DNA from: Phormidium pseudopriestleyi FRX01
GTDB taxonomy: Bacteria; Cyanobacteriota; Cyanobacteriia; Cyanobacteriales; Laspinemataceae
DNA: 35,423 bases
Direction: 5' to 3'
Assembly (NCBI RefSeq): GCF_017313335.1
Contig: NZ_JAFLQW010000586.1
Span: 1 to 35,423 of the forward strand
Part shown: positions 4,419 to 29,961 of the stretch, piece by piece
How the letters are laid out: each line of letters begins with the position of its first letter
How positions within the stretch are numbered: position 1 is the stretch's first letter
Program-made: the position numbers and the translations under genes
Notes under the pieces: model-generated
Databases searched by the model: none
Seen by the model: the letters and a program-made list of their open reading frames with translations, nothing else
Told to the model about the DNA's origin: nothing

Positions 4419-6640
4419 ACCGGGGTTGGAAATTTATCCTAATCAGTATTTTCGCAACAATTACTATCTTAAATCTACAAGGGGATTCACCAGTGTTTGC
4501 CTATCAACTCTTGGGTTAACCCGTTGCTCAAACTCAGAGTTCAGAAGGGGAAATGCGCTTAGAGGAAGGGCGGCGCTCATACGAAAAGCTCCGGTTTGCT
4601 GAAGCCGAAACCGTTTGGCACTCAGCAGTTGGATTATTATTTGGAGAGGAAAAAGCATTAGGGTTCAGTTATATCGCTTTAGCTCAATTGCGCCAAAGCA
4701 AATTGGATGAGGCAGAAACATCGATTCAGGAAAGTCTCAGACTGTTAAATCAGGTCAGGACACCGGGAACATCCGAGCGAAATCAAACCATTCATGCTCG
4801 GATTTTGACCACAGCAGCCCAGATTAACTTAGCCAGAAATCAACCGGAATTAGCCGAACAAGCCTTAAAGCAGTTGGCTGAAGCGACCGCAATTTATGAA
4901 AGACTAAACCAGGCAAAATGGATGATTGCCAGCCAGATTAATCAAGCCCAAGCGATGCAGCAATTGGGAATGTATCGCGAAGTATTGAAAACTTTAAAAG
5001 ATTTGGAAGACCCGATTATCAATCATTCTGAACCGGCGATTCGATTGAGTGGTATCCTCAATTTGGGGAAAACTTATCGGGCGATCGGGGTGTTGGACCA
5101 GTCCTACTGTGTTTTACAAGCTGGACAAGAAAATCCGGAGATTGCATTGGAATTGGGAAATACAGCCCTGGCGATCGGCAACCGACTCAAAGACGAATTG
5201 GATTCTATAACTGAATTGACGTTTGAGCCTATTTTTACAAAACAACAGACACCAAAGTGTAAATTTCCAGTTGAATTGGATAGTCAGGTTAACGCTTGGG
5301 ATTTTTATGAAAAAGCCAACGAATTTTATCAAAAAGTCTGGAATTCTCCCATAGTCAAAGCCGAGACTCAAGTTCAAGCAATGCTGAACAATTTGAGCCT
5401 TTCATTGGATTTAAAAGACACCGAAGGATTAGAGGTGGAAACGAGTCAGTTAGAGAGACAGGCCAACGAATTAGTACCTCAAGTTCTCCAACTGATTGAA
5501 ATTATGCGATTGAATCGGGAGAAGGTGTACGATCGCATTTATTTAGCCCGGAGTTTAACTCCCCTGAACCCAGAATTGAGCCAGAACCAGTTAGAAACGG
5601 CCATTGTCGAAGCGCAGGAGTTAGAGGATAAACGCGCAGAAGCGTATGCGATCGGCGAGTTGGGATCGATGAAACAACAGCATGGGAATTTCACTGAAGC
5701 AGAACAGTGGACCCGACAAGCTGTCGCCATGACGCCACCGGATGCGATAGATATGAGGTATCAGTGGGAGTGGCAGTTGGGACAAATTTTGAAGGAGGAG
5801 GGGAGAACTGAGGAGGCGATTCACCATTATACTCAAGCGGTGGATTTGCTACAAAGGGTGCGTCAAAATTTAGTGGCGATCGCTGCTGGTATGGGGGAGA
5901 TGAATGCGGACCTCCAGTTTGATTTTCGCGATCGGGTCGAACCCGTCTATCGGGAGTTAGTCGAGTTACTCTTAGACCCCCAAGGGAATGAAGTCACCAG
6001 TCAAGATCACATTCAAACGGCTTTAGGTGTTATCGAACTCCTGCAAGTTGCTGAATTAGAGAATTTTCTCCAATGTGACTTGCAACCGGAACCCCAGGTT
6101 CAGTTGGCCCGCAGCGTTGCCGAAGCTAAACATAAGGTTGCTGAAAAATTAGAATTAATTTTCCAAAAATATCCAAACTATGCCCTGATTTACCCAATGA
6201 TTTTGCCCAACAAGCTAGAGGTAATTTTAGCTTTAGCAGAACAACCCTTAGTCCATCATTCAATTCTCAAGCCAGCCGCAGAATTTAAAGAGACTCTCAA
6301 AAAATTAAAAGCTAGATTTAGAGATAGAAGTCAATCGGAAAAACTTCAAAAATTATCTTATGAAGTATATCAATGGTTGATTGAACCTTGGGCAGATCGC
6401 GTTCAGAGCAAGCCGCTAGTTTTCATTCTGGACATTCCCTTCCAAACTATCCCAATGGCCGGATTATACGATAAAATCAATAAAAGATATTTAATTGAAG
6501 ACCATGAAATATCTTTAATGACTACCCTACAAATGTTGATAAAAAAATCGCCGAAAAATGAACTTATCCAAATCTTAAGTGCGGGAATTAGTCAAGGCCG
6601 TATGGAACGAAATATTGCCTTTAGTGACCTATTTTTGTAG
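4370..6640 (+). pseudogene. Exported TPR protein with N-terminal part of a CHAT domain, interrupted by stop and frameshift
   Basis: ATG 4370 starts a plausible secretory leader: MARKWHPFF, then the hydrophobic stretch FILISIFATITIL, then SPVFA. An in-frame TAA at 4517-4519 follows, after which the same frame stays open to 6640. ATG 4553 could restart translation, but the product would lack the leader. The middle is alpha-helical with TPR-like repeats (about 4600-5900). From about 6270 the start of a CHAT (caspase HetF-associated with TPRs) domain is visible, for example VFILDIPFQTIPMAGL. The frame ends at TAG 6638-6640 where the protein should read on as FVEKELTNI, so an indel lies near 6622-6637. 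Known relatives are exported TPR-CHAT proteins beside TPS genes in cyanobacteria. The substrate is unknown. Confidence 0.8.
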
Positions 6641-22358: not shown

Positions 22359-22404
22359 ATCCGGTAAGATATAAAACGATTCCGTAAGGCACCGGATTAT
22401 CCGG
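22359..22404. promoter_or_regulatory. CCGGAT palindromes and candidate promoter upstream of nuclease-ParA gene
   Basis: Bases 22392-22404 read CCGGATTATCCGG, a perfect 13-base palindrome ending nine bases before the TTG start. A third half site, ATCCGG (22359-22364), lies 27 bases upstream, inverted relative to CCGGAT at 22392. TAAGAT (22365-22370) and TATAAA (22370-22375), possible -10 boxes, lie between. The layout suits an operator for autorepression or a ParB-type centromere site. Confidence 0.4.
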
Positions 22405-22413
22405 GTAAAAACC

Positions 22414-23898
22414 TTGAGTTTCCATCCAGACCTTTGCCGAAACGAGAGCGAAGTCGAGAGCAAACTAATCGTCAGTTACTTGTTGCCAGCATTAGGCTAT
22501 ACCCCCGACAGTTGGCATCAAGAAGTTGCCTTTAGTAGCATTCGGTTAGATTTCTTAGCCTTCGCCATCCAAGCCGTTCCCTTCGTCCTCGATGCCAATT
22601 CTCCCCTGAGTGTCGTAATGGAGGCCAAAAGTCCCAAACAAAATCTAGACAAACACCTGAGAAAGTTTAAGCGCTATTTAACGAAACTACAGGTTAAATA
22701 TGGAGTCCTCACGAATGGCAAGGAAATGCGGATTTATGAACGAGTGGGGGAGGAAATTGAGTTAGCCTTTCAGTGTTTGGGACAAGAAATTGAGGCAAAC
22801 ATTGAAGAAATAAATGCCTTAATTGGGAAAGAGAGCAGTAACCATAGACAAACCCTAGATTCACCGGATACAGACTCTAATCTCCCTCAAATTAGGGACG
22901 AGTCAATTTCTGAACAAGCATCGGAAACAATCCCTTTTTCCATCCCATTTCCAGAGGAACTATTTCCTCCGACTCCACCCCTTCCCGAACCCGTTGTTGA
23001 GCAAATTTCTAATAATAAGAGGAAATCTACATTGAAAGTAATTGCTGTTTATCATAACAAAGGCGGCGTCGGAAAAACGACGGTTGCAGTCAACTTAGCT
23101 GCCGCCCTCAGAAAAAAGGGAAAAAAAGTCCTATTAATTGATATAGATGCTCAATCTAATTCAACTTTTGCCACAGGATTACTTAAATTCATATTTGAAG
23201 AAGATGACAATTTAAGAGAGAATAATGTTTATCATCTTTTGGAATCTGGCGACTTTTCTTTTGTATCAGATGTTGCTCGAAAATCTGATTATTTTAATAA
23301 TCCAGAAATTGATGTAATTCCTTCTCATATTACCCTCATTGAAGGGCAGTATAAATTGAATCAAATCGGCGCAAGTAAAACTCGGTTGGTTACCAAGTTA
23401 AGCCGAGTAGAAAAAGAATATGATTTTGTAATTATAGATACCCCGCCCTCGCGGGATTTATATGCAGAAGTAGCATTGATTGCTGCGGATCATCTGATTA
23501 TTCCGTCTGATTTGAAACCTTTTGCTAACCAAGGGTTACCCAGTGTTACGCAGTTTATCAGCCAAGTGAATGAATTTCGAGAGATGATTGGAAAAGGACC
23601 CCTTAATCTTTTAGGCGTCTTACCTTCTAAAATTGCAACCAACGCGAAATTTTTGCAATATACTTTCCCCAAACAAAAGAGTGTAATTCCGGGTCGATAT
23701 GGCCTGCCCTTAATGGATACAATTATTTACGAAAGAACCATTCTTTCTCAATGCACTAATCATACCAATACCAGCCCGCTGGGGGAAGAAATACCAGAAC
23801 CCAAATCAATATTAGAGTATGATCCCGATTCTTTATCATCGGGAGAATTTGAAGCCTTAGCGATGGAAGTTTTAACAAAAACAGGAATAAACCGATGA
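22414..23898 (+). CDS. HsdR-N-type nuclease domain fused to ParA-family ATPase
   Basis: 494 residues. The start is TTG 22414: an in-frame stop lies upstream and no earlier ATG exists. Residues about 10-130 form a PD-(D/E)xK nuclease-like domain of the kind found at the N-terminus of type I restriction HsdR: ESEVESKLIVSYLLPALGY, Asp46 in IRLDF, Glu70-Ala-Lys72 in VVMEAKSPKQ, then YGVLTNGKEMRIYE. An acidic, proline-rich linker (140-205) joins it to a ParA/Soj ATPase: deviant Walker A KGGVGKTT (216-223), LLIDIDAQSN (240-249), and FVIIDTPPSRD. ParA proteins hydrolyse ATP on DNA to position cargo. The nuclease fusion is unusual. It overlaps the ParB-like gene by four bases (ATGA), so the two are translationally coupled. 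No methyltransferase or specificity subunit is near, so it is not a classical restriction system. Confidence 0.85.
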   Translation: MSFHPDLCRNESEVESKLIVSYLLPALGYTPDSWHQEVAFSSIRLDFLAFAIQAVPFVLDANSPLSVVMEAKSPKQNLDKHLRKFKRYLTKLQVKYGVLTNGKEMRIYERVGEEIELAFQCLGQEIEANIEEINALIGKESSNHRQTLDSPDTDSNLPQIRDESISEQASETIPFSIPFPEELFPPTPPLPEPVVEQISNNKRKSTLKVIAVYHNKGGVGKTTVAVNLAAALRKKGKKVLLIDIDAQSNSTFATGLLKFIFEEDDNLRENNVYHLLESGDFSFVSDVARKSDYFNNPEIDVIPSHITLIEGQYKLNQIGASKTRLVTKLSRVEKEYDFVIIDTPPSRDLYAEVALIAADHLIIPSDLKPFANQGLPSVTQFISQVNEFREMIGKGPLNLLGVLPSKIATNAKFLQYTFPKQKSVIPGRYGLPLMDTIIYERTILSQCTNHTNTSPLGEEIPEPKSILEYDPDSLSSGEFEALAMEVLTKTGINR

Positions 23899-24689
23899 TT
23901 TCTTTTTCCCTAGTAGATGTTAAAAGTATCAATTCAACCGTATCTCGTTCCACTTTATCTGAAACAGTGTTGAATAGTCTTTCCGACCTAATTTTAGAGT
24001 GTGAAGGACTTTTAAAACCTGTAGTTTTAAAAAGAACGGGACCCGAAAGCTATACCGTAGTTGATGGACATTTAGAATACTACGCTGCTGTTAGAGCAAA
24101 AGAAAAAAATCCTCGTAAAGGGGAAATGGTTAATGCTTTTGTGATTTCACCAAAACATGAAGAAATCATACTCAAGCAAACTGAGTTATTGAAGAGTTTT
24201 GCAGAATCTAATACAAATCAAGGTGTTCAAAATTCACCGGCTCAAGTACCCATTGAATCTAATCAGCAAGATGTTAAAGATTTATCCGTTCAGACGCCAA
24301 TTCAATCGGATGTAGAAGCCAGATTCATTAATATTGAAGTTCGGCTGGAAACCCGACTCAATGAATTAAAAGCTGAGTATTCTCAGAATCTCCAAAGAAT
24401 GGAAGAGACGTTAAGTCAAAAGTTAGAGGAAAGGTTAAAAGATATTGAAAACCGGAACCCCAAACCTGCTCCATTACTAGAATCTCTGAATAACTTAGAG
24501 TTGCCTTCACCCCAACTGGATTCGCAGTTGAAAAATGCTGGAGTCAAGCAAAATATCATCAAGAATATAGAGGATGAGCGAAATAAAACACCCTTTGAAC
24601 CCTTCATCAATTTTGAAGATGTGGTTACCAGAATTAAGGGATTGGGTGATAAAACAATGATTAAACTGATTGATGGTTGGCAAAGGTAA
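23895..24689 (+). CDS. ParB-like partner protein with coiled coil
   Basis: 264 residues. ATG 23895 overlaps the stop of the ParA fusion (ATGA). Residues about 18-90 resemble the ParB/sulfiredoxin N-terminal fold: LSETVLNSLSDLILECEGLLKPVVLKR then SYTVVDGHLEYYAAVRA, where DGHLEYYAA stands at the site of the usual DGxxRxxAA box. A variable linker (100-145) and a long charged helix, likely coiled coil (about 150-195, ELKAEYSQNLQRMEETLSQK), follow. The last 30 residues (FEDVVTRIKGLGDKTMIKLI) look like a helix-hairpin-helix or small DNA-binding tail. No standard ParB helix-turn-helix is seen. It probably recruits the nuclease-ParA protein to DNA. Family call moderate, role inferred. Confidence 0.7.
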   Translation: MISFSLVDVKSINSTVSRSTLSETVLNSLSDLILECEGLLKPVVLKRTGPESYTVVDGHLEYYAAVRAKEKNPRKGEMVNAFVISPKHEEIILKQTELLKSFAESNTNQGVQNSPAQVPIESNQQDVKDLSVQTPIQSDVEARFINIEVRLETRLNELKAEYSQNLQRMEETLSQKLEERLKDIENRNPKPAPLLESLNNLELPSPQLDSQLKNAGVKQNIIKNIEDERNKTPFEPFINFEDVVTRIKGLGDKTMIKLIDGWQR

Positions 24690-24717: not shown

Positions 24718-24745
24718 AGAGTGGCAGTTTCAAACCTGCCACTCT
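24718..24745. terminator. Bidirectional terminator between ParB-like and ATPase genes
   Basis: AGAGTGGCAG (24718-24727) pairs exactly with CTGCCACTCT (24736-24745) around an 8-base loop. A TTTTTT run lies to the left and TATTTT to the right. It serves the convergent genes on both sides. Confidence 0.75.
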
Positions 24746-24747
24746 GT

Positions 24748-26799
24748 CTATTTTCTAACCTTGTTGCCAAAGGCTTCTAACACACAAACTAACTGGGCTG
24801 ATTCGGGGATTTTTTCATCTAAAATAAACAGCTTATTTTCTGTGCAAAGCTGAAAGATTAACTCTTTAACTTGATACTCTTGGACATCGGTAAATTGGTC
24901 TAAGGTATTTTGAATCAAGACGGTTTGGCCCATGATTTGCTGGGTACGAACTAAGGCGAGTAAATACTCTTTGGCTTTCTTTAAGGCTTTACTGCGATCG
25001 CCTGCGGGTCCAAGTTGTTTCGGTTTATTATCGCTGACTCCTATAATGCGGGTATATCCAGCAAATACGCCCAAGGTTTGTAATACCGGACATTCTTCTA
25101 AAATTTGAGCTTGGCGAATCATTTCTTGTAATTCTTTTAAGTTCGGGGTGAGACTTCCCACGACTAATTCACCAGCACAAGCGGCGTTGACTAAGCTATG
25201 ATAAGTGACTAAATAATGGACCGATACCATATCCGGCAAAATGTGGCGATGGGGATGTCCGGTAAAAATTTGGGAGTAAAGTTTATTCCCCAGGTTTTTG
25301 CGCGTTCCTAAGCGTTCACCGCGAATTAAATAGAGGGTTTTGCAGCGTTGCATCGTCAGGGCTTTTTCGCAGGCTTTCATGATATGATAAAAGCTGACTA
25401 GATTGGGGTCTTCTGTCCAAACAATCCCTATTCTTCCCAGTTGCGCTGGCAGATGATAGCTGAGGGAATAACTGGCGTAGGTTGGACTGGGTAAGAGTTT
25501 TTGTTGAATGCCACTCACATTTAAGGCTTCAAGGGCTTCTCGCACCATTTGCATCAGTTCTGGGGCAGAAAATTGACGCAGGCGGGTGATTTTATCCTGG
25601 GTTTTATTAAATTCTTTCACCCAGACGAGGTGAAAGGCGGCAGTTACTTCGTTTATTGAAGGTGAGATGACCGATTCGGTCCTAGTTCCTGGCTGTTGTT
25701 TGGCCTCTTGAAACAGTTGTCTTCCCAGGAGGAGTGCAAACCGAGGCAAGGTTTTCCCCCCGGGAAATTTGGCCGCTAAATCTGGTTCGGTGATGGGATA
25801 GATGGGGGATAGGGGGAGAGTTTCGGCTAATTGGTGTAAGGAATACAATCCCATGGCTAACAATCCGGCAGCTTGATTGAGGTCGATCGCACTCAGGCGG
25901 ATTTTTGTATCAATTCGGGCTAAATCTGCCGGTTGAATCCGTTTATAGTTTTGCTGCCAGGTATTGGTGATAATACTAATAATAATAACAAAGTTTTTGA
26001 GTTTTTGGTTGTGAATAATGGAATTAACATTAAATAACGCCTGTAAATTAATTAATCCATCTATCCCTCGGTCAATATTATCTAAGTTATCAAAACATAA
26101 GACAATCGGCTGAGTTGCGGAGGCAATTTTTCCAAAATTTGATAAAATTTGCTGGGCGGCATTTTCTGTATCAATGGACCGTTTAACCCGCAACAGTTTT
26201 AAACTGGATTCATCTAAATCATCCCCTTTCAGCCACTCACAAGCGAGGGGATATAATTTAGGATTGGTTAAGTCATAGAGAACGCCAAAGAACTCATTGG
26301 CGTTATAGATTCCGGCAGGATAGGTTCCTTTTAATTTATGGATAAACAGTTGTCGTTCTCCGAATACCCGTTTCATCAGCGTTCTATCTTGAAAGGCGGC
26401 TAATTCTTTTAGCCAGAGTAACAGTTGGGATTCGGTTTGACCCTGGGGAACATACATCAAACTATCGACGGTATTGCGGAGGGTATGCCGCCAAATAAAT
26501 TCGCTTTCAGGCCAAGGTCCAATATAGGCAAAAAATGCTTGGGAATTGAGGGTACTTTTAATCCGTCCTAATAGATAACTTTTTCCGGAACCGGAATCTC
26601 CCGAGAGGAGAATTGTGCGGGTTCGATGGTCTTGGGTGACGGTATGGACGACGGAGGTAATTTCCGTTAAGACTTCTTGATGAATGGAATCGACGGTAAA
26701 GGCCGAATTTTGGTCTTCTTGCCAAAAATTCCCGGGTCTAAAGGTGGTGGAATCAAAGGGATTAACGGATTCTTGAATAATGCGGTCAATAGATGCCAC
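24748..26799 (-). CDS. P-loop ATPase (ORC/STAND-like), downstream paralogue
   Basis: 683 residues from GTG 26799, chosen because TGAGGAGT lies just upstream and because it aligns with the start of the paralogue at 28981; an upstream TTG (26844) is weak. A P-loop ATPase: Walker A GDSGSGKS (67-74), Walker B PIVLCFDNLDNI (about 231-242), then a likely sensor-1 strand (NFVIIISIITNTWQQN). The region after residue 300 is helical with winged-helix-like parts near the end (about 620-680). A conserved central segment (SYSLSYHLP, MVSVHYLVTYHSLVNAACAGELVVG) is shared with the neighbour. No transmembrane segment. The fold suggests an ATP-driven DNA- or protein-binding switch of the ORC/Cdc6 or STAND class. 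Specific function unrecognised. Confidence 0.75.
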   Translation of the reverse strand: MASIDRIIQESVNPFDSTTFRPGNFWQEDQNSAFTVDSIHQEVLTEITSVVHTVTQDHRTRTILLSGDSGSGKSYLLGRIKSTLNSQAFFAYIGPWPESEFIWRHTLRNTVDSLMYVPQGQTESQLLLWLKELAAFQDRTLMKRVFGERQLFIHKLKGTYPAGIYNANEFFGVLYDLTNPKLYPLACEWLKGDDLDESSLKLLRVKRSIDTENAAQQILSNFGKIASATQPIVLCFDNLDNIDRGIDGLINLQALFNVNSIIHNQKLKNFVIIISIITNTWQQNYKRIQPADLARIDTKIRLSAIDLNQAAGLLAMGLYSLHQLAETLPLSPIYPITEPDLAAKFPGGKTLPRFALLLGRQLFQEAKQQPGTRTESVISPSINEVTAAFHLVWVKEFNKTQDKITRLRQFSAPELMQMVREALEALNVSGIQQKLLPSPTYASYSLSYHLPAQLGRIGIVWTEDPNLVSFYHIMKACEKALTMQRCKTLYLIRGERLGTRKNLGNKLYSQIFTGHPHRHILPDMVSVHYLVTYHSLVNAACAGELVVGSLTPNLKELQEMIRQAQILEECPVLQTLGVFAGYTRIIGVSDNKPKQLGPAGDRSKALKKAKEYLLALVRTQQIMGQTVLIQNTLDQFTDVQEYQVKELIFQLCTENKLFILDEKIPESAQLVCVLEAFGNKVRK

Positions 26800-26854
26800 G
26801 GCGGACTCCTCAGTGAGAGAATACAGGTTGTAATAGGGGTGCAATTCCGTCCAG

Positions 26855-26886
26855 AGGCGATCGCAATTCTCTAGGCGATCGCAATT
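26855..26886. repeat. Duplicated HIP1 block between twin ATPase genes
   Basis: AGGCGATCGCAATT occurs at 26855-26868 and again at 26873-26886. It lies in the 91-base spacer between the two ATPase genes. HIP1 sites (GCGATCGC) are common in this genome; this tight duplication may be incidental. Confidence 0.6.
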
Positions 26887-26890
26887 GGAG

Positions 26891-28981
26891 TTATCGCGAA
26901 GAGTTGACCAAATAGACTAACTGATCTTCTAGTTTGGCATCAGGATTGAGAATGGCAACTTCCGGATGATTTTCGCAAAGATGTTCAATTAAATGATGAA
27001 CTTGGGATTCGTTAATATGGGAAAATTGCAAAATCGCTTCTTGAGATAACCGTTGACGGGCCATACATTGTTGATTGATAGCCCGATTTAACAGAAAATC
27101 CTCCACAGGTTGCCACAATTCCCGAGTTGCTTCGCCAATGGGGAGACTGGGAACCAGTTCTAATTCTTGCAACAGGGGACAGTATTGCAAAATTTTGGAT
27201 TCCCGAATCAGGGTTTGCAATTCGGTTAAATTTGGGGTAGCATCGCCGACAATTAAATCTCCGCCACAGGCATCATTGACTAAGCTGTGATAGGTAACCA
27301 AATAATGAACCGAGAGTAAGTCTGGTTTGAGATGATGATGACGAGATTTCCGGTAAATATCGGTATATATTTTGTATCCGGTATTGTTAGGATTGCCGAT
27401 ACTTTCTTCGCGGATTAGGTGCAAACTGTGGCATTGTTTCGCGGCGATCGCCTCTTGGCAGACTTTCATAAAATTGCAAAACTTCGTCAAATTGGCATCT
27501 TCACTCCATGCCACCCCAACGGTTTCTGAAGTTCCCGGGAATTGATAACTGAGGGAATAACTACTATAAGTCCGACTATCCAAGAGGCGAAGCTTAACAT
27601 CTGGGACGGATAATGCTTCTAATGCTTCCCCTAACATGGCGATTAATTCCGGGGAAGAGAACTGTCGGATCCGGGAAATTCTCTCCTGAGTTTGCGTAAA
27701 TTTCCGCAACCATAACAACTTGAAAGCTGCCAGCAAATCTGCTTTGGGTTCAGCGGTTGGAGGTAAACTTTTGACCCCGGGAACATTGGTCGCCGGTTCG
27801 GAGGAATGGGAGGGTTGTGAATCCAAAACCTGGGTATATTCTACCTCAATATATTCCAGGCGATCGCGCATTAATTCTAACTTGTGGTCCTGCAATAACT
27901 GTCGTCCCAACATCAGGACATTTCTGGGACGAGTTTTCCCCCCAGGAAACTTATCCTCCAACTTTTCTCGGGTGAGGGGATACAAATTAGACGGGGGTTG
28001 GGTGGCGGATTGACGATGCAAAATGGACAAGCGACTCGCCCAAATTGCCTCCCCTTGATAGAGACTAATTTGTTTGAGTTGAACAATCGCATCGAGTCGG
28101 TCCCTATCCGTTGCTTGGATGCGAAAGGCATTTTGTTTCCAAGTATCGGTAATGATGCTAATCATTACTAGAAAATTCTTTAATTTTTGGTTATGAATCA
28201 CTGAATTTACCCCAAATAAACTGGGCAAATCAATGGACCAATCGGCTAATCGGGCAATATTATCTAATTGGTCAAAACATAAGACAATTGGCAGAGTTTC
28301 AGCAGAAATTCGGCCAAAATTTGCTAGAATTTTTTGGGCGGCATCTTCGCTATCGATGGAATGTTGCACCCGGAGGAGTTTGAGACTTTCTTCGTCTAAA
28401 TCATCGCCGCGTAACCACTCGCAGGCAATGCTAGAAAATTTAGGATTGGTTAAGTCATAGAGGACGCCGAAGAACTCATTGGCATTATAGATTCCTGTGG
28501 GATAGTTATCTCTGAGATTGCGGATAAAAACCTGGCGATCGCCGCGAATCATATCCATGAGACTGCGATGTTCAAATTCCGATAATCCTTTTAACCACAA
28601 AATTAATTGAGAATCTTGTTCTCCCTCGGGAACTTCCAGCAAACTATCCACCGTGTAGCGGAGAATATGCCGCCAAATATAGTCACTGGCGGTAAAGGGT
28701 TCGATATAAACAAAAAAGGCTTTACGATTGAGAATCCGCTTGATTCGGCCTAATAAATAGGACTTACCGGACCCTGTTTCTCCTTCTAATAAAACGGTCC
28801 GAGTGCGATGGTCCTCTGCCACCTGATTGAGTAAGGTTTCGATTTGGCCGATCGCCTCTTGGTGAATCGAATCAACCGTAAACACCGGATTTTGTTTTTC
28901 CTGCCAAAAATTGCCGGACCAAAAGGTTTCCGCATCAAAAGGATTCGGTTCTCGCTGAATGATTTGTTCGAGTGTTGCCAT
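26891..28981 (-). CDS. P-loop ATPase (ORC/STAND-like), upstream paralogue
   Basis: 696 residues from ATG 28981 (AAAGG upstream). An earlier ATG at 29014 lies at the edge of the heptamer repeat and is less likely. Walker A GETGSGKS (67-74), Walker B PIVLCFDQLDNI (231-242), sensor-1-like NFLVMISIITDTWKQN. It is alignable along its whole length with the downstream gene (shared IYNANEFFGVLYDLTNPK, GDDLDEESLKLLRV, NSVIHNQKLKNF), with an extra linker near residues 370-400. The two are thus a tandem duplication that has diverged while both keep intact nucleotide-binding motifs, consistent with a hetero-oligomer. It follows the winged-helix-like gene on the same strand after 122 bases. Function unrecognised. 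Confidence 0.75.
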   Translation of the reverse strand: MATLEQIIQREPNPFDAETFWSGNFWQEKQNPVFTVDSIHQEAIGQIETLLNQVAEDHRTRTVLLEGETGSGKSYLLGRIKRILNRKAFFVYIEPFTASDYIWRHILRYTVDSLLEVPEGEQDSQLILWLKGLSEFEHRSLMDMIRGDRQVFIRNLRDNYPTGIYNANEFFGVLYDLTNPKFSSIACEWLRGDDLDEESLKLLRVQHSIDSEDAAQKILANFGRISAETLPIVLCFDQLDNIARLADWSIDLPSLFGVNSVIHNQKLKNFLVMISIITDTWKQNAFRIQATDRDRLDAIVQLKQISLYQGEAIWASRLSILHRQSATQPPSNLYPLTREKLEDKFPGGKTRPRNVLMLGRQLLQDHKLELMRDRLEYIEVEYTQVLDSQPSHSSEPATNVPGVKSLPPTAEPKADLLAAFKLLWLRKFTQTQERISRIRQFSSPELIAMLGEALEALSVPDVKLRLLDSRTYSSYSLSYQFPGTSETVGVAWSEDANLTKFCNFMKVCQEAIAAKQCHSLHLIREESIGNPNNTGYKIYTDIYRKSRHHHLKPDLLSVHYLVTYHSLVNDACGGDLIVGDATPNLTELQTLIRESKILQYCPLLQELELVPSLPIGEATRELWQPVEDFLLNRAINQQCMARQRLSQEAILQFSHINESQVHHLIEHLCENHPEVAILNPDAKLEDQLVYLVNSSR

Positions 28982-29002
28982 CAGAGTACCTTTGGGTAAG
29001 TT

Positions 29003-29058
29003 GTCATTGGTCATTGGTCATTGGTCATTGGTCGTTGGTCATTGGTCGTTGGTGATTA
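29003..29058. repeat. Heptamer tandem repeat (STRR type)
   Basis: Seven consecutive copies of GTCATTG or GTCGTTG (29003-29051) followed by a degenerate GTGATTA. This is the form of the short tandemly repeated repetitive sequences of filamentous cyanobacteria. It lies in the spacer between the winged-helix-like gene and the first ATPase gene and touches the alternative ATPase start. Confidence 0.85.
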
Positions 29059-29103
29059 GTGGGCGGTTTGTCCTTTGTTATCTTTGATTACCTATCCCTA
29101 AAT

Positions 29104-29961
29104 TTATTCAGTAACAATAATAAAAAACAAGGGACCGCCGATATCTTGGGGAATTCCCAACTCGATTTGGTCTGGACTGTAAGACATTGCCTCTTGTAAA
29201 GAACTTAACTCAATGCGATCGGTGCGTTGTAAGCGATAAAGAGTGCGATCAAACTCTTCCCGGGAGAGGGGAGGTTGTAACTTTTGCCTCAGATGAAAAA
29301 TCGGCAAATAGTTATCGGTTGATAATTCCCGATCTAACTTCTGAATGAGATGCACAATCTCATCATCGGATAACGGTTTAGATTTAATCACCTCCAATGA
29401 TGGCAAAGGAGTTGTTGTTGCGGGGGATGAATTGGGAGGAAAAGAGTCTTCAGGCGATCGCAAAGATTTCCGCAAGAAGCGCAAATAATTCGTCAGCATA
29501 TCCAAACTAACGACAGGTAACGTTCCACTGGGATTGTACTCTTCCCGGAGGTATTCCTGTCCTCGGGCTGTTAACCAGACCTCGGTAATTTGGATTTTTT
29601 CCGCCTTAATTAACCCTTTTTCTGCTAACCCTTGAATAACAGATTGCCGGGTTGCCGCCTCTAGCTTTGTTTGTGCCGGAGTGATGGTAGACTCAGCACA
29701 AGCAGTCAGGATAGCCACTTCTGCCTCGGCGATCGGCAAGCGGGTTGGATCGAGTTGCAGCAAAGATTTGCCTGCCGGAGAAATCGAAAATGTCAAAATC
29801 TCCTCGGCATATCCGACTAACTGGCGATCGGCGAGTGTACGACAGATGCCATCGCGTTCCGTCGCCTTAGTTTTCGGATTCGGTTTAATCTGTGTGATGG
29901 CGGCCCGATAATCGGGAAACCCTAGTAAATCTAGCAGAAACTTGAGCTCCTGCACTTCCAT
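29104..29961 (-). CDS. Winged-helix-like protein paired with twin ATPases
   Basis: 285 residues, ATG start. Three parts are visible: an N-terminal helical domain (ELKFLLDLLGFPDY), a middle winged-helix-like domain (about 80-135, ATRQSVIQGLAEKGLIKAEK then WLTARGQEYL), and after a Pro/Ser linker (170-190) a second winged-helix-like domain (about 200-285, NYLPIFHLRQKL, LSREEFDRTLYRLQRTDRIE) ending in GGPLFFIIV. No catalytic motif or membrane segment is seen. It is the first gene of a three-gene - strand set with two ATPases, so it is likely their DNA-binding or substrate-recognition partner, or their regulator. I do not know a named family for it. Confidence 0.6.
   Translation of the reverse strand: MEVQELKFLLDLLGFPDYRAAITQIKPNPKTKATERDGICRTLADRQLVGYAEEILTFSISPAGKSLLQLDPTRLPIAEAEVAILTACAESTITPAQTKLEAATRQSVIQGLAEKGLIKAEKIQITEVWLTARGQEYLREEYNPSGTLPVVSLDMLTNYLRFLRKSLRSPEDSFPPNSSPATTTPLPSLEVIKSKPLSDDEIVHLIQKLDRELSTDNYLPIFHLRQKLQPPLSREEFDRTLYRLQRTDRIELSSLQEAMSYSPDQIELGIPQDIGGPLFFIIVTE

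Follow-up and report, generated by a model that had tools for sequence, protein, structure and literature searches.

A cyanobacterial gene pair joining a restriction-type nuclease-ParA fusion to a ParB-fold partner, with a tentative role in DNA conflict

ParA proteins act as ATP-dependent, DNA-bound dimers that are stimulated by a partner, dimeric cutting is common among PD-(D/E)xK nucleases, and ParB proteins carry two CTP boxes, GERR and ENxQR. The ParA-binding motif of ParB is LG[RK]GL (PMC12704722). The locus described here resembles ParABS systems of the Soj/Spo0J type in that a ParA with a deviant Walker A motif is encoded next to a ParB-fold protein, and differs from them in that a nuclease domain is fused to the ParA. 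This domain is a PD-(D/E)xK domain of the HSDR_N_2 family, as is the HsdR N-terminal nuclease of type I and type IIG restriction enzymes; unlike those enzymes, however, the fusion has no SF2 motor, methylase or specificity part, and its ATPase is a ParA. Carboxysome positioning by McdAB likewise pairs a cyanobacterial ParA with a partner gene, but McdAB includes no nuclease and, to our knowledge, McdB is not a ParB-fold protein. In Mokosh, the MkoA protein is a helicase-nuclease, whereas the protein reported here has no helicase. Wadjet/MksBEFG and Hachiman are alike in idea, not in homology, since in each a DNA-handling ATPase controls a nuclease; these ATPases are SMC proteins or helicases rather than ParA (PMC10586767, PMC12278908).

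The locus lies in a window of 35,423 nucleotides, the whole stretch of DNA that was analyzed, from Phormidium pseudopriestleyi FRX01 (contig NZ_JAFLQW010000586.1, positions 1 to 35,423). The fusion gene (22414-23898, plus strand) has a TTG start and encodes 494 amino acids, as supported by the ORF call, by Pfam matches to HSDR_N_2 and AAA_31 and by full-length cyanobacterial homologues, and the window's own genome contains one copy. An HSDR_N_2 nuclease-like domain (aa 17-110; 22462-22743) is followed by a variable linker (aa 141-206; 22834-23031) and a complete ParA ATPase domain (aa 207-494; 23032-23895). The HSDR_N_2 match scored 26.5 bits when the whole protein was searched and 29.3 bits when the domain was searched by itself (curated Pfam cut-off 25), and 16 of 16 nuclease domains of relatives that were tested matched the same family at E 0.001. 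In tblastn searches, the domain matched N-terminal parts of type IIG restriction enzymes at E-values down to 2e-7; the hits, to type IIG enzymes and N-6 DNA methylases, lay on haloarchaeal viruses and on Thermus and haloarchaeal plasmids. Searching the solved structures by profile, with this domain as query, gave no credible match. The ParA part is matched by AAA_31/ParA at aa 208-387 (E 4e-53) and, in a structure model of the fusion based on 8 sequences, is nearer to Soj/ParA (Z 23.7) than to McdA (Z 19.5). Structure prediction of the N-terminal domain had been proposed beforehand; in this model aa 1-73 fall below pLDDT 50 and the nuclease fold is unreadable.

The preliminary description had placed an HsdR-N-type domain with Asp46 and Glu70-x-Lys72 ahead of a complete ParA in one protein, and both Pfam and the alignment agree. 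Among the 42 fusions of the window's family (family 1), D46 (codon 22549-22551) is kept in 39, and E70 and K72 (codons 70-72, 22621-22629) are each kept in 41, while the deviant Walker A motif KGGVGKTT (23059-23082) is intact in all 42. The equivalents of the three catalytic residues are all present in 5 of 5 proteins of a second family, and the D and E-x-K positions are conserved in all aligned members of a third. It had also been noted that the fusion stands without methylase or specificity genes, and indeed no HsdM or HsdS gene was found among the neighbors scanned; with no SF2 motor in the fusion protein either, the locus does not classify as a type I restriction system. No model in PADLOC-DB 2.0.0 matched the fusion over its whole length, the matches being to the P-loop or to partial domains only.

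The fusion gene overlaps by 4 bases the start of a ParB-like partner gene (23895-24689, plus strand; 264 aa), with which it forms an operon. A same-strand partner lies immediately downstream in 40 of the 45 loci with a fusion-like gene, mostly with -4 to +10 bases between the fusion stop and the partner start. The preliminary description had not mentioned this partner, whose presence turns what looked like a single enzyme into a module of two genes. In a structure model of the partner (mean pLDDT 70), aa 1-105 (23895-24209) have a ParB/sulfiredoxin fold that matches Myxococcus ParB with Z 10.0 (92 aligned residues, rmsd 3.2), aa 137-187 (24303-24455) are predicted to form a long helix or coiled coil, and aa 192-264 (24468-24686) form a helix-hairpin-helix (HhH)-like module, recognized also by our own HMM, that resembles the HhH domains of KIF22 (Z 6.7) and ComEA (Z 6.0). 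The Pfam ParB_N match is weak in the window's partner (18.3 bits) and exceeds the cut-off in relatives. A terminator-like hairpin, by consensus match only, lies at 24718-24745 (plus strand) between the module and the convergent genes that follow.

Unlike the ParB of ParABS systems, the partners have neither the CTP boxes nor LG[RK]GL, which a pattern search found in 0 of 69 partners of three kinds, and no HTH domain for binding parS was recognized in them, although a missing match does not prove absence; nor was any parS-like repeat common to the relatives found within 180 bases upstream. The partners have tails of HhH type, Rho_N/SAP type or an unnamed third type, each of which occurs with both the first and the second kind of ParB-like head, indicating that nucleic-acid-binding tails shuffle over at least two kinds of head. 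Since a canonical ParB is encoded elsewhere in the window's genome, the fusion and its partner would be an extra system.

The preliminary description had asked whether the fusion is found across cyanobacteria or in this strain alone. The nuclease domain is matched in 68 of 386 cyanobacterial genomes, 48 of them closely (E 1e-30 or better), and in one all-species scan with short peptides the full protein turned up in cyanobacteria alone. With the fusion thus not confined to this strain and the catalytic residues conserved, neither of the two outcomes that the preliminary description had named as refuting it was obtained. The gene occurs as one strong copy per genome in 29 of 30 genomes of a Microcoleus-like genus (a label that rests on the named records L014 and L015), in 7 of 8 genomes of Laspinema (named from records L009, L010 and L012), and in 86 of 193 genomes of a group, f6, that we take to be Nostocaceae from the family's size and content. 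Many family-1 members lie on multi-megabase contigs and are thus chromosomal, and a pattern-based search of PLSDB plasmids, INPHARED phages and IMG/VR found no close family-1 member in these collections. Proteins of family 2 have the same domain order, are about 24-33% identical to family 1 in the nuclease domain, and are accompanied by a partner with the second kind of ParB-like head. Of the 386 genomes, 41 have family 3, again an HsdR_N-ParA protein, at E 1e-30. In 8 of the 10 loci read, the next gene encodes a partner whose head is of a third kind and whose tail is Rho_N-like; the two loci without it (L090 and L151) are from the same genome and two of those with it (L153 and L163) are the same plasmid.

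A gene-by-gene comparison of five loci, namely the window, L009 and L010 (Laspinema), L011 (Oscillatoria HE19RPO) and L012 (Laspinema D2d), revealed a mosaic structure. Identity is 86-97% for the flanking proteins and, in every pair, 84-97% for the nuclease domain, but the stretch from about aa 200-215 to where the partner ends exists as two alleles, between which the ParA is 52-54% and the partner 34-37% identical. A scan of informative sites in Laspinema showed that the diagnostic sites flip sharply at this domain boundary, and the recombination break lies between the end of the linker and about aa 215. In trees of the 42 fusions, which were quick ones and from which the clades to be tested were chosen after inspection, the nuclease tree requires 10 host-family changes, the minimum for 11 families, whereas the ParA tree requires 15; partner tail type agrees more closely with the ParA tree, on which it changes 7 times, than with the nuclease tree, on which it changes 11 times. 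The Laspinema clade has a support of 98 from the nuclease data and is rejected by the ParA data (AU p 0.0002), which also reject a Nostocaceae clade (p 0.002). Furthermore, within one genus, a single site between neighboring proteins that are 66-96% identical is occupied by family 1 in one genome and by family 2 in another, the two fusions being only 30% identical. As judged from these sequences, the nuclease half tracks the host families, while the ParA and ParB-like half is exchanged as a block with its break at the domain boundary.

A further rearrangement was found in a single genome, G121, in which the C-terminal half of an SF1 helicase is joined to a ParA of the same subfamily. One in-frame stop separates this fusion from the upstream frame, which encodes the N-terminal helicase half, matches MkoA of Mokosh and has a weak match to the MTES_1575 nuclease. 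At this locus (L087, 2379-8452), a broken family-2 module and the helicase-ParA fusion with a family-1-type partner stand in tandem.

We tentatively favor, at a little short of an even chance, the reading that this is a two-gene cyanobacterial module, made up of a restriction-type nuclease-ParA fusion and a ParB-fold partner, that acts in DNA conflict. Given the known dimers of ParA and the dimeric cutting of PD-(D/E)xK nucleases, the most economical model is a pair of nuclease domains acting on DNA, gated by ATP and set by the partner. ATP would turn the ParA part into a DNA-bound dimer and so might bring two nuclease domains together; the partner, anchored on DNA by its tail, would stimulate or release the ParA and thereby determine where and when the nuclease acts. 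The target would be foreign or competing DNA, and the ParA/ParB-like half would serve as a changeable half for recognition and control; we infer all four of these elements, namely the ATP gating, the cutting by dimers, the control by the partner and the role in conflict. This reading is consistent with the conservation of both domains together with their catalytic and Walker A residues, with the ParB fold and shuffled tails of the partner, with the discordant nuclease and ParA trees and the exchange of the ParA/partner block in Laspinema, and with the alternation of families 1 and 2 at one site between conserved flanks. The joining of the same ParA/partner pair to a Mokosh-like helicase points in the same direction, as does the presence of the identically laid out family 3 on a viral contig and on two Nostoc plasmids with further partition genes of their own. 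In particular, the fact that the nuclease is conserved while the ParA/partner half behind it is exchanged suggests a changing pressure on that half, as would be expected in conflict with foreign DNA.

Several observations nevertheless argue against a role in conflict. The module is single-copy and near-universal in the Microcoleus-like genus and in Laspinema, which is unusual for a defense gene, and this core-gene behavior in some genera is the main difficulty. Moreover, the fusion is not a PADLOC member, two lineages have lost catalytic residues while their frames are intact, the structure model is too poor in its nuclease part to judge, and the helicase fusion is a single case that is broken by a stop. 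In addition, the ParA/partner pair also occurs without the nuclease: in about nine genomes the ParA subfamily lacks it, and the ParB-like gene is mostly retained.

The surroundings of the module likewise gave no support for the defense-island location that the preliminary description had put forward for checking. The neighbors of the module and control proteins from the same genomes, 103 proteins in each set, each included a handful of defense-like genes, with matches such as HEC-01A, AbiU, MkoA and SspH in the neighbor set. Redundant models inflate the counts of defense families (121 among the neighbors against 36 among the controls), and of the two MkoA matches in the neighbor set at least one is the G121 helicase itself, as it has the same E-values. 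There was thus no clear excess of defense genes over the controls and no ground for claiming an enrichment. The broader suggestion of a surveillance or defense device, on the other hand, gains indirect support from the block exchange, the shuffled tails, the mobile relatives and the one Mokosh-like fusion.

The core-gene behavior fits more naturally with a second explanation, a serious rival though on balance unlikely, namely that the module is a core chromosomal device of these polyploid cyanobacteria, in which the ParA/ParB-like pair organizes or positions DNA and the nuclease serves in repair, in the resolution of joined chromosomes or in the control of copy number. Its chromosomal location, its single copy per genome, the vertical descent of its nuclease half and its near-universal presence in two genera would all be expected of such a device. 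However, fewer than half of the Nostocaceae genomes carry the fusion gene, the ParA/partner block has been exchanged between distant lineages, and both the mobile family 3 and the Mokosh-like helicase fusion would be difficult to account for in this way.

We consider it distinctly improbable that the chromosomal module is a domesticated weapon or stabilizer of mobile elements, derived from plasmid or phage modules of the family-3 type that cut rivals or plasmid copies lying outside the partition complex, and now directed against incompatible plasmids. Such an origin draws on the occurrence of family 3 on two Nostoc plasmids, both of which also encode ParM and one of which has two further ParA/ParB pairs, and on one IMG/VR contig; the block exchange, too, would fit an escape from cross-talk with the ParA/ParB of resident plasmids. 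The absence of family 1 from every plasmid and phage in the collections searched stands against it. For the same reason, and with family 1 being chromosomal and single-copy, the proposal of the preliminary description that the window's gene belongs to a selfish element's partition system was not supported. Finally, it is very unlikely that the nuclease-like domain is a DNA-binding or structural piece only, within a ParA/ParB-like positioning system for some cargo: the unfused ParA/partner pairs and the losses in two lineages with intact frames (Gly in place of D46 in three Laspinema genomes, L143-L145, and both E70 and K72 in L147) are compatible with it, but D, E and K are kept in nearly all of family 1 and throughout the aligned members of families 2 and 3.

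In the open-access literature searched, we found no description of a protein that joins HsdR_N to ParA. The parts are of known kinds, while their combination and their modular exchange appear to be new. It is possible, although we regard it as rather doubtful, that the module represents a new form of DNA surveillance, in which a ParA, in place of a helicase or an SMC protein, keeps a restriction nuclease on DNA, the choice of what is cut falls to a ParB-fold partner whose tails are interchangeable, and the nuclease is kept while the ParA/ParB-like half is exchanged. If the conflict reading is correct, the known work of ParA-type ATPases, the positioning of DNA and protein cargo, extends to the control of a nuclease, and a genome can retain its nuclease yet change the ParA/ParB-like half. 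Since the module is common in filamentous cyanobacteria, being nearly universal in one genus, it may have consequences for plasmid transfer, phage resistance and genetic work with such organisms, and it offers a case in which a role of ParA/ParB-like pairs beyond segregation can be put to the test.

A few minor features of these loci were also observed. The palindrome ACCGGATTATCCGGGT lies at 22391-22406, a few bases 5′ of the TTG start, with no strand assigned; within the relatives it is kept only in Laspinema, with small changes and with both ParA alleles, and it may be an operator. Short palindromic repeats of the AGTAGTGAGTCCTTTAGGACTC type border the module in one genus (5981-6041 and 8265-8346 in L056; 5939-6022 and 8551-8614 in L086). 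They were considered as a signal of mobility and set aside, as they look like ordinary interspersed repeats; they are probably general repeats of this kind and possibly recombination sites.

Nostocaceae and a few others have, near the module, a separate ParA gene that stands alone, encodes 294-318 aa (about 25% identical) and is usually divergent (L053, L057-L059, L061, L065-L067, L070 and L083). In Microcoleus (10903-12886 in L015; also L051, L052 and L055), a second ParB-like/Rho_N gene lies near the module and is followed by a gene for a Uma2-family "putative restriction endonuclease", the Uma2 match having been read in L015. In the window, the region 24748-29961 (minus strand), convergent with the module, encodes a pair of paralogous AAA_16 ATPases of 698 and 707 aa, along with a 285-aa, weakly winged-helix-like protein. 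These genes are related to ATPase and winged-helix genes of L009, where, as in L010 and L011, a protein of 862-872 aa is encoded (2121-4709 in L009, minus strand), a similar gene being present in L016. As read in L009, this protein combines a 3′-5′ exonuclease, a PD-(D/E)xK nuclease and an FtsK/HerA motor, and it matches SspH and mad8 in PADLOC. Its gene stands in line with those for the AAA_16-like ATPase and the winged-helix-like protein, and this row of genes is possibly a DNA-processing or defense operon.
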